Assembly: GCA_016180965.1 (NCBI GenBank)
Contig: JACPAF010000001.1
Location: forward strand, 74,111-109,859
Source of the DNA: Candidatus Aenigmatarchaeota archaeon
GTDB lineage: Archaea > Aenigmatarchaeota > Aenigmatarchaeia > JACPZZ01
Reading direction: 5' to 3'
DNA: 35,749 nucleotides
This document shows positions 11,006-24,456 of this stretch, in pieces (position 1 is the stretch's first letter; every line of letters starts with the position of its first letter). The notes below the pieces were generated by a model, which worked only from the letters and a program-made list of their open reading frames with translations, was not told where the DNA came from and searched no databases. Made by a program: the position numbers and the translations under genes.

Positions 11006-11097
11006 TAAGACAATCTACGAATTTGGTGCGAATACAACCTATTTAACTTTAGTGCGGACAAACAATTTCTAGTGTTGCCCCGGTAGCTCAGTAGGTT

Positions 11098-11130
11098 GCT
11101 TGATGTATACTCCGTATACTCAGTCTGCAA
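11098..11130 (+). other. Predicted tRNA-Asn intron 1 (D-loop)
   Basis: Removal restores D-loop AGTAGGTTA; contains hairpin GTATAC-TCC-GTATAC; boundaries can slide by a few nt. Confidence 0.75.
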
Positions 11131-11147
11131 AGAGCGCATGGCTGTTA

Positions 11148-11184
11148 ACTACTAAAGTCGAAAAATGACGTTTGGTTGGCTGCG
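11148..11184 (+). other. Predicted tRNA-Asn intron 2 (canonical 37/38 position)
   Basis: Removal restores loop CTGTTAA closed by CATGG/CCATG; ±1 nt ambiguity. Confidence 0.8.
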
Positions 11185-11194
11185 ACCATGAGGT

Positions 11195-11226
11195 ACTGTT
11201 ACCGGATTACCGGCAAACAGGCATAA
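11195..11226 (+). other. Predicted tRNA-Asn intron 3 (variable loop)
   Basis: Removal restores variable loop AGGTC; insert has hairpin CTGTT-A-CCGG-ATTA-CCGG-CA-AACAG. Confidence 0.75.
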
Positions 11227-11256
11227 CGGTTGTTCGAGTCAACCCTGGGGCGCACT

Positions 11257-11273
11257 TATTTTTTTTATTTTAG
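11257..11273 (+). terminator. T-rich archaeal terminator downstream of tRNA-Asn
   Basis: TATTTTTTTTATTTTAG-type tract just after the tRNA 3' end. Confidence 0.5.
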
Positions 11274-11290: not shown

Positions 11291-11392
11291 AGAAGCAGGT
11301 ATATCGTAAACTGAAGCAGGTTTAGGTTGAAGCATACCTTGGGTATGCTTCTTTTTACCTCTTGCTTCCAGCTGCGAGGCATCTGCTTCAGT
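11291..11392. repeat. Nested palindromic repeat element between tRNA-Asn and EF-1alpha
   Basis: ACTGAAGCAG (11310-11319)/CTGCTTCAGT (11383-11392) encloses GAAGCATACC-TTG-GGTATGCTTC (11329-11351); three GAAGC and three GCTTC words. Confidence 0.8.
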
Positions 11393-11445: not shown

Positions 11446-12711
11446 ATGAACAAACCTCACATCAACGTAGTTTTTGTCGGGCACGTCGACCATGGAAAAT
11501 CCACTTTAGTGGGACGTGTTCTTTACGACTCCGGAAAAATACGCGAAGATGAGATGAATAAGTTAAAAGCGATTGCGAAAGAAGTCGGGAAAGAGACTTT
11601 TGAATTTGCATTTGTAATGGACGTCACTAAAGAAGAAAGAGAGCGCGGCGTCACTATCGAGATTAACTGGAAAGAAATAGACACGCCAAAAAACCATATC
11701 ACAATAATAGATGCGCCTGGCCACCGCGATTTTATCAAAAACATGATAACGGGCGCAAGCGATGCCGACGCTGCTGTTTTAGTCGTTGATGCGGATGCAG
11801 GCCTACAGCAGCAGACGAAAGAACATTTGTTTTTGACGCGCACGTTGGGAATAGACCAGCTGGTTGTTGCGGTGAATAAAATGGACAAAGTCGGCTATTC
11901 GAAGGATAAATTCGACAAGATCAAAAACGACATAGATAAATTATCCAAACTCGTCGGTTACCAGAACGTTAATTTTATTCCAGTTTCCGCTTATGTCGGT
12001 GACAATGTGGTGAAAAAATCCGATAAGCTGCAATGGTATTCCGGACCGACGTTATTCGAAATGCTCGATAAATTGAAAGAGCCCGAGAAGCCGACGGATA
12101 AGCCGTTGAGAATGCCTGTTGACAAAGTTTATAGCATCAAAGGCATTGGTGTTGTTCCGATAGGCCGCATAGAGACGGGAAAATTGAAAATAGGCGACAC
12201 GGTTGTTTTCGAACCGTCTAACGGCCGGGGCGAAGTAAAATCCATAGAGATGCACCACAAACAAATGGTTGAAGCGGGACCGGGCGATAACATTGGTTTC
12301 AACGTCAAAGGGATCGATAACAAACAGGTTAAGCGCGGAGACGTGATGGGAACGCCTCAGAACCCGCCGACTGTTGTCACTCAAAAAGATTGGATTGAAG
12401 CCAAAATAGTTGTTTTGGACCATCCAAACGGAATCTCCATCGGGCATGTCCCGTCAATGTTCGTGCATACCGCGGATGTGCCGGTAAAAATCATTGAAAT
12501 AGTAAGCAGGATAGACCCGGCCTCGGGCCAGCAAGTTGAAAAGAGTCCCAAGGTTGTTAAAACCGGCGAGGCTGCGATAATAAAACTGCAGCCTCTGGTT
12601 CCGGTCGTGATAGAAAAATCTTCATCGATACCGCAATTGTCACGCTTCGCATTGCGCGAGGGCGGGATGACCATTGCGGCCGGCGTCTGCACAGGAATTA
12701 ATAAAGGTTAG
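11446..12711 (+). CDS. tuf: Translation elongation factor EF-1alpha
   Basis: GHVDHGKSTLVGRVLYDSG, DAPGHRDFIKNMITGASDAD, VAVNKMDK; ATG at 11446 preferred over TTG 11437. Confidence 0.97.
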   Translation: MNKPHINVVFVGHVDHGKSTLVGRVLYDSGKIREDEMNKLKAIAKEVGKETFEFAFVMDVTKEERERGVTIEINWKEIDTPKNHITIIDAPGHRDFIKNMITGASDADAAVLVVDADAGLQQQTKEHLFLTRTLGIDQLVVAVNKMDKVGYSKDKFDKIKNDIDKLSKLVGYQNVNFIPVSAYVGDNVVKKSDKLQWYSGPTLFEMLDKLKEPEKPTDKPLRMPVDKVYSIKGIGVVPIGRIETGKLKIGDTVVFEPSNGRGEVKSIEMHHKQMVEAGPGDNIGFNVKGIDNKQVKRGDVMGTPQNPPTVVTQKDWIEAKIVVLDHPNGISIGHVPSMFVHTADVPVKIIEIVSRIDPASGQQVEKSPKVVKTGEAAIIKLQPLVPVVIEKSSSIPQLSRFALREGGMTIAAGVCTGINKG

Positions 12712-12719
12712 ATCAATAA

Positions 12720-12748
12720 AAACAGATGCTATAAGTATGCATCTGTTT
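12720..12748. repeat. Perfect intergenic hairpin downstream of EF-1alpha
   Basis: AAACAGATGC-TATAAGTAT-GCATCTGTTT, 10 bp stem. Confidence 0.8.
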
Positions 12749-12774
12749 CAGTTAGTTAATGGTGGTTGCAAACC

Positions 12775-12806
12775 GAAACATACGCCATACTAAAGGCGTA
12801 TGTTTC
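12775..12806. repeat. Perfect intergenic hairpin immediately upstream of tRNA-Phe
   Basis: GAAACATACGCC-ATACTAAA-GGCGTATGTTTC, 12 bp stem, 9 nt from the tRNA 5' end. Confidence 0.85.
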
Positions 12807-12815
12807 TAGCTAAAA

Positions 12816-12889
12816 GGGTTCGTAGCTCAATCCGGGAGAGTACACGGCTGAAGCCCGTGCTGTTGGGGGTTCAAATCCCTCCGAACCCA
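12816..12889 (+). tRNA. tRNA-Phe(GAA), intronless
   Basis: Acceptor GGGTTCG/CGAACCC, D-stem GCTC/GAGT, anticodon arm CACGG-CTGAAGC-CCGTG, T-arm GGGGG-TTCAAAT-CCCTC, discriminator A. Confidence 0.93.
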
Positions 12890-13744: not shown

Positions 13745-14371
13745 ATGATCGAAATGCCGAAGAACATGAAAGACGATGAAGACTTGAACTCCAATGCCTA
13801 CGCAGAGGACAAGGATTTCTTGGAATTGGGAAAGGCTGAACCATTAAGAGGCGAATTGATAGAAAACAGGGTGATGGTTTTTTCGCACCCGTTACTAAAC
13901 GAATTTTTTGAGCGCGGTTACGGCAAATTCGCGGAAAACAGGCTCGAATTGTCGTTTGTAGAAGCGTTATACCTAGTCGACAAAGGTAAGCTTGTTGTTA
14001 CCAGCAAAAATAAAAAAACAAATTTTGAGGAGCTAATTAAACTTGCGAATGAAACTGACCGAGAAATACACACAACGTACGTGGTTTACAAGGACCTGCG
14101 CGAACGCGGACTAACCATAAAGACCGGTTATAAATTCGGATGCCATTTCCGCGTTTACGAACGCGGTGTGAAAATAAAACGCGGTCCGAAAGAAGCGCAC
14201 GAACATACAAAATGGATCGTGCACGCAGTCGCTGAAGACTACACGTGTTCATTTCCTGAATTGTCGCGGGCTGTGCGTTTGGCGCATAACATACGGGCAA
14301 AAATGTTATGGGCCATCGTCGACCAAGAAAACGACGTTACATACTATCAGATTTTGAGAATAAAACCTTGA
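13745..14371 (+). CDS. endA: tRNA splicing endonuclease EndA (catalytic subunit)
   Basis: YKDLRERGLTIKTGYKFGCHFRVYERG, HEHTKWIVHAV, IRAKMLWAIVDQENDVTYYQI (Tyr/His/Lys triad region); one-unit size. Confidence 0.93.
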   Translation: MIEMPKNMKDDEDLNSNAYAEDKDFLELGKAEPLRGELIENRVMVFSHPLLNEFFERGYGKFAENRLELSFVEALYLVDKGKLVVTSKNKKTNFEELIKLANETDREIHTTYVVYKDLRERGLTIKTGYKFGCHFRVYERGVKIKRGPKEAHEHTKWIVHAVAEDYTCSFPELSRAVRLAHNIRAKMLWAIVDQENDVTYYQILRIKP

Positions 14372-21741: not shown

Positions 21742-23360
21742 TGGCGGTAGTTACGTTCAACAGGAAAGATTTCGAATCCCTTCTGGGCAAGAAGTTAAAG
21801 GATTCCGATTACACTGAAACCATTCCTATGATAGGAGTGACCACGGAATCGTTGAGTGCGGATTCCGTCAGTTTTGAAGTGTTTCCAAATCGGCCGGACA
21901 TGCTTTCCGTAGAAGGCTTTGCGCGCGCGCTGGCCGCATTTATGGGAAATCCGAAAAAAATAAAATACGGCGCATCCGATGTTCATGGAATTATCAAAGT
22001 CGAAAAATCCGTAGATAATGTGCGTCCTTATGTCGTTTGCGCTGTTATTCGGGGAATAAAACTTGACGATGACACGTTGAAATCAATGATACAATTCCAG
22101 GAAAAAATACACGAAACATTCGGGCGCAAAAGGGAGCGCGTCGCTATTGGAGTCCATGACATATCCAAAGTCAAATTTCCGTTAAATTATGCAGCATATA
22201 ACCCGAATAAAATTTCTTTTGTGCCTCTGGACATGAAAGAGAAGATGAATCTCGCACAAATACTACAAAAACACCCGAAAGGAAAAGATTACGGATGGAT
22301 AATCGAGAATTCCAAAGCCTATCCTGTCATAACCGACGCTAATGGGTATGTGCTCAGTTTTCCGCCGATAATCAACGGAGAATTAACGCGTGTCACGGAA
22401 AAATCCAAGGACTTGTTCATAGACGTTACCGGAAATTCAAAACATTACATTTCGAAGACATTGAACATGATTTGCGCCTCGCTGGCCGACCGCGGAGCTA
22501 AAATCGAGGCCGTGGAGGTAGTGTATGGAAACAAAAAGGAATTGACCCCTGACATGGAACGCCAGAAAATCGATGTTAACGCGGATTACGTGAACGGACT
22601 TCTTGATACGGACTTAAAAGAAAACGAATTGAAAACGCTGCTTGTAAAGATGGGTGTGGATTTTACCAAGGGCATCGCTTCCGTTCCCTGTTACAGGACC
22701 GATGTTATGCACCAGATGGACATCGTCGAGGATGTGGCGATAGCAATTGGTTACCAAAAATTCGAGCCGCGCATACCAAAAATACCGACGATGGCCGAAC
22801 GCAATGAGGTTTATGAAAAATGTTACGCCATAAAGGAAATTATGATTGGATTGAGCTTTGAAGAAACCGTTTCATTCGTACTGACTAACGATAAAAAACA
22901 GTTTACTATGATGAACTCGCCCTCAGAGGAGTGCGCGACTATATTGAACCCGAAAACGGAAGATTACACAGCATGCAGGAAACATTTGATACCATCCTTG
23001 GTCGCGGTTTTGGCCGACAATAAACATAACGAATATCCGCAGAAAATTTTCGAAACTGGGGATTGTGTTGAACTATCTAACAACGATACCGGTGCGATTA
23101 ACGCAAGGAAATTTGCGGCGGCGACGTGCCATGCGAATGCGGACGTGAACGAGATAAAATCTGTTTTGGAAACATTCGCACACCTTTACGGGATAAAATA
23201 CACACTGAAGAATTCGTCGCATCCGTCAATGATTAGGGGCCGATGCGGGGATATTTTTGTAGACGGGGAAAAAACCGGCGTTATCGGAGAAATATCCCCG
23301 GAAGTTTTAAAAAATTGGGGGCTGGAAAATCCGGTTGCGGTTTTTGAGATGGTTGTCTGA
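21741..23360 (+). CDS. pheT: Phenylalanyl-tRNA synthetase beta subunit
   Basis: VSFEVFPNRPDMLSVEGFARAL, DVMHQMDIVEDVAIAIGY; 1-nt overlap with pheS. Confidence 0.96.
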   Translation: MAVVTFNRKDFESLLGKKLKDSDYTETIPMIGVTTESLSADSVSFEVFPNRPDMLSVEGFARALAAFMGNPKKIKYGASDVHGIIKVEKSVDNVRPYVVCAVIRGIKLDDDTLKSMIQFQEKIHETFGRKRERVAIGVHDISKVKFPLNYAAYNPNKISFVPLDMKEKMNLAQILQKHPKGKDYGWIIENSKAYPVITDANGYVLSFPPIINGELTRVTEKSKDLFIDVTGNSKHYISKTLNMICASLADRGAKIEAVEVVYGNKKELTPDMERQKIDVNADYVNGLLDTDLKENELKTLLVKMGVDFTKGIASVPCYRTDVMHQMDIVEDVAIAIGYQKFEPRIPKIPTMAERNEVYEKCYAIKEIMIGLSFEETVSFVLTNDKKQFTMMNSPSEECATILNPKTEDYTACRKHLIPSLVAVLADNKHNEYPQKIFETGDCVELSNNDTGAINARKFAAATCHANADVNEIKSVLETFAHLYGIKYTLKNSSHPSMIRGRCGDIFVDGEKTGVIGEISPEVLKNWGLENPVAVFEMVV

Positions 23361-23366
23361 TAACTA

Positions 23367-23398
23367 GAATCATACCGTATTTTGTACCGGTATGATTC
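23367..23398. repeat. Perfect hairpin between convergent pheT and minD-like genes
   Basis: GAATCATACCG-N10-CGGTATGATTC, 11 bp stem. Confidence 0.82.
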
Positions 23399-23407
23399 GG
23401 TTTACCT

Positions 23408-24172
23408 TTAATCAAAAATAAAACCGAAAACCCTTGACATTAAGCTGGGGTTCCTTTTTTGGTATTGAAGCCCTATTAAAGAATGGGCCAATCTTGTTAT
23501 TTCTTCCGATGCCGCTGATCTGGGGTTAGCGCTTACGACGGGCTTGCGCATTGCTATTGATGCAGGCACGTTAATATCTTCTGGTATTTCAGCTGAAACT
23601 GACAGGGATAACATTTGCTCAACTTCCCGGCGTGTCATCTCGTGTTTGTGGTTGCGCACACGATTAAGGACGACGCCGGTTATCCATTTGTCTTTGTTTT
23701 GAACCACTTTAACGGTCTTTAATGCGTCTGCAACCGATGGCAAATCCGGGTTTGTGACTAAAATTATTTCGTTCGCAGCGTCCATTGCCGATTGCGCCTC
23801 GCGACCGAGACCTGCGGCTGAATCGAGTATAATCATATCCATCGTGCCATCCAAGTTAGCGACGACTTCGCTTAACGTAGACGGGTCGACGCCTTTCATT
23901 TCGTCAAAAGATATTCCAGCGGGCAATACGTAAAAACCGGCTTCGTGCATATAGACTGCGTCGCGGATTCTTGCCTGGCCGCGCATGACATCGTGCAGGG
24001 TGGTTTTTGCAACAGGCATGTTTAAATGAAAGCCAATGTTCGGGGTTGTGACATTGCCGTCGATGACCATCACTTTTCTGTTTAGTTTAGCCATGGATGC
24101 GGCCAAATTTGCGACTAACGTGGTTTTACCGACGCCGCCCTTTCCGGATGTCACACAGATTAAACGTGTCAT
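23408..24172 (-). CDS. minD: MinD/ParA-family ATPase
   Basis: ICVTSGKGGVGKTTLVANLAASMA, VMVIDGNVTTPN, MIILDSAAGLGREAQSAM. Confidence 0.93.
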   Translation of the reverse strand: MTRLICVTSGKGGVGKTTLVANLAASMAKLNRKVMVIDGNVTTPNIGFHLNMPVAKTTLHDVMRGQARIRDAVYMHEAGFYVLPAGISFDEMKGVDPSTLSEVVANLDGTMDMIILDSAAGLGREAQSAMDAANEIILVTNPDLPSVADALKTVKVVQNKDKWITGVVLNRVRNHKHEMTRREVEQMLSLSVSAEIPEDINVPASIAMRKPVVSANPRSAASEEITRLAHSLIGLQYQKRNPSLMSRVFGFIFD

Positions 24173-24210: not shown

Positions 24211-24330
24211 CGGGCCTGATGGGATTTGAACCCACGACCTTTTGCTGTCTTCCTTTGGTTGACCGTTTGGTCAAGCTTTCCCAAAGCTTGTTAGAAGGCA
24301 ACCGCTCTGTCCAAGCTGAGCTACAGGCCC
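24211..24330 (-). tRNA. tRNA-Arg(TCT) with a 45-nt intron near position 37/38
   Basis: On minus strand: acceptor GGGCCTG/CAGGCCC, D-stem GCTC/GAGC, loop CTTCTAA, T-arm GTGGG-TTCAAAT-CCCAT, discriminator G. Intron about 24247-24291 has hairpins CAAGCTTT-GGG-AAAGCTTG and TTGACC-AAAC-GGTCAA. Confidence 0.92.
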
Positions 24331-24367: not shown

Positions 24368-24415
24368 GTAACTGACTGAAACATGTCATGTTAAAATTGA
24401 CATGTTTCCAGTTAC
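24368..24415. repeat. Composite intergenic hairpin between ASCH gene and tRNA-Arg
   Basis: GTAACTG-ACT-GAAACATGTCA-TGTTAAAAT-TGACATGTTTC-CAGTTAC: 7 bp outer and 11 bp inner stems with one 3-nt bulge. Confidence 0.85.
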
Positions 24416-24456
24416 CAACTTTCTTCCGCTTTTACTCAATTGTGCACAAGCATTTA

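Follow-up and report, generated by a model that had tools for sequence, protein, structure and literature searches.

An uncultured groundwater archaeon of the Aenigmatarchaeota carries a tRNA-Asn(GTT) gene that is interrupted by three introns of 34, 37 and 32 nt, located at tRNA positions 20/21, 37/38 and 47/48. It is very likely a functional gene, whose introns would be cut out by an alpha-type splicing endonuclease (EndA) and whose exons would be joined by the ligase RtcB to give a mature tRNA of 73 nt. The gene occupies positions 11077-11252 (176 nt) of the window, i.e., the whole 35,749-nt stretch of contig JACPAF010000001.1 that was analysed (positions 74,111 to 109,859; assembly GCA_016180965.1). 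The genome (G000) is a metagenome-assembled genome (MAG) of 731 kb in seven contigs that is 81% complete, and its EF-1alpha shares 92% and 89% identity with those of two Candidatus Aenigmatarchaeota groundwater MAGs. The four exons follow each other in the order of the tRNA on the plus strand: exon 1 (nt 1-20) at 11077-11096, exon 2 (nt 21-37, with the anticodon GTT) at 11131-11147, exon 3 (nt 38-47) at 11185-11194 and exon 4 (nt 48-73, the T arm and the 3' strand of the acceptor stem) at 11227-11252.

Once the three inserts are removed, the cloverleaf is complete and displays the conserved tRNA bases; its stems are Watson-Crick paired throughout, except for a single G-U in the acceptor stem. 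Each insert holds a hairpin, which is weak in intron 2. The initial annotation had described the locus as a tRNA-Asn(GTT) interrupted three times, with stems perfect save one G-T, with a hairpin in each insert and with a need for splicing at non-canonical positions, and it holds on all these points. It had also noted that standard finders often overlook such genes; the locus is indeed missed by ARAGORN and by the Rfam tRNA model, even at a relaxed threshold. A script of our own, which scans the fetched genome for T-arms and matches them to acceptor and D-arm strands located upstream, recovers it as a tRNA-Asn(GTT) carrying inserts in three loops (D, anticodon and variable). At 32-37 nt, the inserts are too short for group I introns, whose core needs about 200 nt or more, and no group I match was obtained with Rfam.

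The tRNA-Asn loci of five congeneric MAGs, this one included, measure 107, 150, 176, 178 and 180 nt. Splicing at the inferred sites gives the same 73-nt tRNA-Asn in all five, letter for letter, which excludes chance as the origin of the structure; introns found at the same position are 24-94% alike. The sets of introns differ from one species to another. G001 harbors three introns, of which that at 20/21 measures 32 nt and that at 37/38 only 13 nt, the third being at 47/48. G003 and G004 carry a different D-loop intron, at 15/16, together with 37/38 and 47/48 introns, and introns 2 and 3 are precisely absent, without any scar, from G002. Each insert is therefore missing from some orthologue, introns 2 and 3 from G002 and the 20/21 intron from G003, G004 and other families. 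No claim is made about the direction of gain or loss on the tree, as the identities of EF-1alpha and of EndA point to conflicting nearest relatives. As all these sequences come from MAGs, the inserts could be viewed as assembly artefacts, whether from chimeric joins or from repeats that the assembler introduced. This is extremely improbable, since five separate species assemblies contain different but orthologous introns of similar length at precise tRNA loop positions.

The comparison with G002 also delimits two of the introns. In this species of the same genus, the only insert lies in the D-loop, and nt 22-74 (in a 74-nt numbering) are uninterrupted and 100% identical to the exons studied here. 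Because these exons are contiguous without a scar, intron 2 (anticodon loop, plus strand) is bounded at 11148-11184 and intron 3 (variable loop, plus strand) at 11195-11226. From the sequence alone, the boundary of intron 2 could be shifted by one A; the canonical 37/38 site was adopted.

For intron 1 (D-loop, 11097-11130, plus strand), all pairs of boundaries leaving a valid D-loop (11 allowed) were scored against the standard bulge-helix-bulge (BHB) geometry, that is, a 4-bp central helix and bulges of 3 nt in which the cut follows the second nucleotide. The best-scoring pair, GUAG GU^U GCU / AGU CUGC AA^A, has the central helix GUAG/CUGC and the bulges GU^U and AA^A; its cuts, GGU^U and AA^A, release 34 nt. 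The D-loop left behind is AGUAGGUA. Other families of the class have exactly this D-loop where their tRNA-Asn is free of a D-loop intron (L038, L039, L040), and so do the congeners whose D-loop intron is placed elsewhere. A 33-nt intron 1, as given in the initial annotation, was rejected: it leaves the D-loop AGTAGGTTA, unlike those of the relatives, and the mature tRNAs would then differ between species. Among the sizes proposed at the outset, the 37 and 32 nt of introns 2 and 3 are retained, whereas intron 1 becomes 34 nt and the mature tRNA 73 nt instead of 74 nt. In G001, an alternative boundary of intron 1 scores slightly higher (6.1 vs 5.8), so the choice of 20/21 in this species rests on agreement with the relatives.

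The flanks resemble those of a transcribed gene. A TATA-like element, TATTTAA (11040-11046, plus strand), which may serve as promoter, is found about 30 nt upstream and at the same distance in four congeners; the T-rich 3' flank (11256-11271, plus strand), a likely terminator, is conserved in them as well. No second tRNA-Asn was found in any of the five genomes (all incomplete, with about 28 kb of contig C3 masked in this one). The locus might be a decayed pseudogene if a working copy were hidden among the missing or masked portions of the genome, which is 81% complete and has C3:175131-202355 masked. Such decay is very improbable given that the introns diverge among five species whose exons are 100% identical, that none of the five genomes holds another tRNA-Asn and that the promoter-like and terminator-like flanks are conserved. 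The N-masked stretches of this genome, about 28 kb, are G000:C3:175131-202355 and 204846-205802; any tRNA genes there are unreadable.

The junctions differ in how closely they fit the BHB motif. That of intron 1, whose central helix has all 4 bp and whose two bulges measure 3 nt each, is better than those of shuffled introns (P 0.018), and the corresponding fold is at most 0.5 kcal/mol above the minimum free energy (MFE) in every splicing context. In the 15/16 intron of G003 and G004, the central helix is made of the D-stem strand GCUC paired with the intron sequence GAGC (P 0.0012-0.0014). Intron 3 displays a relaxed motif, ACC-AUGA-GGU^A-CUGUU / AACAG-GCAU-AA^C-GGU, in which the 5' bulge has 4 nt and three of the four central pairs form. 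Its P values, 0.0004 here and 0.001-0.01 in the other species, are optimistic, this form having been spotted by eye before scoring. The motif uses strands of the anticodon stem and of the T stem, which must open, at 3.4-5.6 kcal/mol relative to the mature fold. Overall, the D-loop and variable-loop junctions fit the BHB geometry better than shuffled introns do in every species (P 0.0004-0.03). Intron 2 fits only loosely, as its central helix CUGU/GCUG includes a U-U mismatch (P 0.065). Of the four species having intron 2, three show a weak anticodon-loop BHB (P 0.06-0.09), and this motif lies 6.5-8.6 kcal/mol above the MFE. The 13-nt intron 2 of G001 has four central pairs; its length leaves no room for a separate inner helix, and its low P therefore overstates the match. 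The relaxed BHB forms invoked by the initial annotation are thus found for the variable-loop intron and for the anticodon-loop intron, whereas the D-loop intron has a standard BHB. At the three junctions, then, the expected motif is present for intron 1, present in relaxed form for intron 3 and weak for intron 2.

A gene encoding EndA (13745-14371, plus strand; 208 aa, in a reading frame open from 13706) is located 2.5 kb downstream of the tRNA-Asn gene. This lone alpha-type enzyme, of a type reported as inefficient on relaxed introns, had gone unnoticed in the initial annotation although it lies in the same window. The protein matches PF01974 (1.3e-26) and PF02778 (1.2e-15), both tRNA_int_endo domains being above cut-off, and aligns over its full length with the enzyme of Methanocaldococcus jannaschii (1A79; 2.1e-34). 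Its residues Y138, H154 and K186 align with the catalytic triad Tyr, His and Lys of the latter. EndA is encoded by one gene (208-222 aa) in this genome, and exactly one PF01974 match per genome was found in all five congeners (71-91% complete). Neither a second subunit nor a three-unit fusion was detected here with PF01974, PF02778 and class-specific alpha and beta profiles, and the enzyme is probably a homotetramer. Other families of the class possess tandem alpha-beta EndA genes or fusions. An AlphaFold model of EndA obtained from a two-sequence alignment (pLDDT 39) was discarded.

According to the review by Hirata, relaxed introns are removed efficiently by (alpha-beta)2 and epsilon2 enzymes only, by means of a CSL or ASL lysine (PMC6379350; see also PMC12397907). 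By residue number, CSL K44 and ASL K161 map to the N-terminal domain of EndA. When aligned with M. jannaschii, this domain shows no insertion of CSL or ASL type, with at most one extra residue there. Six extra Lys-rich residues are present between the catalytic Tyr and His (residues 138-154), an extension conserved across the single-gene EndA of the class. The Lys-rich insertion, VKIKRGPKEAHEH, was considered as a crenarchaeal CSL and rejected, as it sits between the catalytic Tyr and His and not in the N-terminal domain, and as a relative with an intronless tRNA-Asn (L087, L038; both G011) shares this conserved insertion. Owing to this conservation in G011, the Tyr-His loop is not proven to be the cause of a broad specificity. 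The inserts could be removed with the help of a very divergent second subunit that escaped detection, or by another nuclease, as the restriction of efficient relaxed-intron removal to (alpha-beta)2 and epsilon2 enzymes (PMC6379350) and the tandem alpha and beta genes of other families would suggest. The profiles that detect no second gene here and the one PF01974 match in each congener argue against such an extra factor, which nevertheless keeps a modest likelihood.

Both EndA and RtcB are encoded in the genome, and the reading frame of rtcB (G000:C2:290412-291743) is itself interrupted by a 21-nt insertion with an in-frame TAA, directly after MPDGH (GGCCAT^ACCTTTTAATTAAGGGGCAAA^TCC). The rtcB gene of G003 (L124) shows the same 21-nt insertion and a second one, of 33 nt, after GFDI; those of G004 (L122) and G002 (L123) are uninterrupted. 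These insertions resemble BHB pre-mRNA introns, here within the gene of the splicing ligase itself. In archaea, cbf5 is an established case of a gene with pre-mRNA introns (PMC2738675); our literature search found no published report of one in rtcB.

Interruption of tRNA genes is widespread in this genome. Out of 29 tRNA genes parsed, at least 18 carry inserts (automatic parses, not curated); eight of the latter are very long, with precursors of 160-237 nt. Further tRNA genes with T-arm inserts escaped the script. One of them, tRNA-Tyr(GTA) at G000:C3:46134-46330, has an anticodon-loop intron and another in the T arm and is missed by the standard model. In the four congeners (G001 being only 71% complete), the Rfam model finds 7-20 tRNAs per genome, whereas two other families of the class yield 33 and 40; heavy interruption explains in part why so few are found in the genus. 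Another family of the class (L037, L039, L040) has a tRNA-Asn with uninterrupted D and anticodon arms that breaks off in the T-loop, as would be expected if an intron were located there. In tRNA-Leu(CAA) (G000:C2:28623-28842; 220-nt precursor), the D-loop insert contains GTGATGA and CTGA motifs and may be an intron that houses a C/D-box guide RNA.

A 51-nt hairpin repeat, CTAGAAACATACSC-loop-GSGTATGTTTCAGT, whose arms covary, abounds in each of the five congeners; 35 other genomes of the class have none or almost none. Copies lie in the window at 11319-11361, 12709-12759, 12765-12816, 23357-23408 and 24368-24418; a tRNA-Arg(TCT) gene (24211-24330, minus strand) that has an anticodon-loop insert shows a copy 38 nt upstream. 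Among 54 copies examined, four are inside tRNA genes, within their introns, and 18 within 60 nt of one, many abutting it within 1-3 nt, for about 0.6 expected for both classes together. No Y1 transposase that might move the repeats was found. The inserts of tRNA-Asn could accordingly be regarded as mobile hairpin elements that still move, the tRNA being merely a landing site: at least four tRNA genes contain the genus-specific repeat and many others have it directly next to them, and intron 1 weakly resembles it (8.6 bits). Membership of intron 1 in the repeat family was rejected as this score falls short of genome-wide significance, and neither intron 2 nor intron 3 matches the repeat. Moreover, exon conservation indicates that the gene is in use, and mobility would concern the origin of the inserts rather than their present function. 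Mobile inserts appear rather improbable as an account of the locus.

A functional, spliced tRNA-Asn gene thus remains the preferred reading, and its expression can be outlined as follows. The gene would be transcribed as a single pre-tRNA of about 176 nt. EndA, likely as a homotetramer, would cut it at 20/21, 37/38 and 47/48, at BHB or relaxed motifs, and RtcB would ligate the exons into the 73-nt tRNA-Asn. The sequences show the order of the exons, the limits of introns 2 and 3, the identical spliced product of the five species and the single EndA gene; we infer the cleavage by EndA, its homotetrameric state, the ligation by RtcB and the order of intron removal. Counting against this scheme are the weak BHB of intron 2, the strand opening at intron 3, the published rule on relaxed introns (PMC6379350), the incomplete genome and the interrupted rtcB. 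A bolder proposal, which we put forward tentatively and at somewhat less than even chances, is that the lone alpha-type EndA, devoid of CSL and ASL, cuts D-loop, anticodon-loop, variable-loop and T-loop introns of tRNAs as well as the rtcB pre-mRNA introns. Its broad specificity would have evolved in another way, perhaps via the Lys-rich Tyr-His loop, with the hairpin repeat feeding new introns into tRNA genes.

Archaeal tRNA genes can contain up to three introns each (PMC8450103), and three-intron pre-tRNAs are already known from Pyrobaculum, namely tRNA-Glu(UUC) of P. calidifontis and tRNA-Pro(UGG) of P. islandicum (PMC4390854). As in these cases, the gene described here is a single tRNA gene with its exons in order and three short introns, at non-canonical positions; it differs by its phylum (groundwater Aenigmatarchaeota), its isotype and its single alpha-type EndA, in place of the crenarchaeal (alpha-beta)2 enzyme. 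ARMAN-2 (Ca. Micrarchaeum acidiphilum, epsilon2 EndA) likewise combines a small genome with non-canonical introns (PMC12397907, PMC6379350) and has a similarly long Tyr-His loop (Y236-H251 vs Y138-H154 here), but its EndA is a three-unit fusion with an ASL, whereas the present one has one unit and no ASL insertion. The catalytic part also aligns without gaps over 129 residues with the EndA of Nanoarchaeum equitans (3IEY chain A), which has the same long Tyr-His loop but a separate second subunit (NEQ261), none being found here. The alpha4 enzyme of M. jannaschii (1A79) shares the single subunit and matches over the full length but lacks the six extra Tyr-His residues, and the introns of the present organism are more numerous and less canonical.

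The finding thus extends the three-intron tRNA of Pyrobaculum, and heavy tRNA interruption more generally, to the Aenigmatarchaeota, a phylum for which our literature search found nothing on tRNA introns. For a specialist, the surprising part is the lone alpha-type EndA, which makes the rule that reserves relaxed introns for (alpha-beta)2 and epsilon2 enzymes directly testable. The five congeners, with differing intron sets around an identical tRNA, form a natural series for the study of intron gain and loss. In these archaea, an essential tRNA for which the genomes show a single gene would rely on three splicing events here, and up to three would be needed in the genus before asparagine codons can be read.
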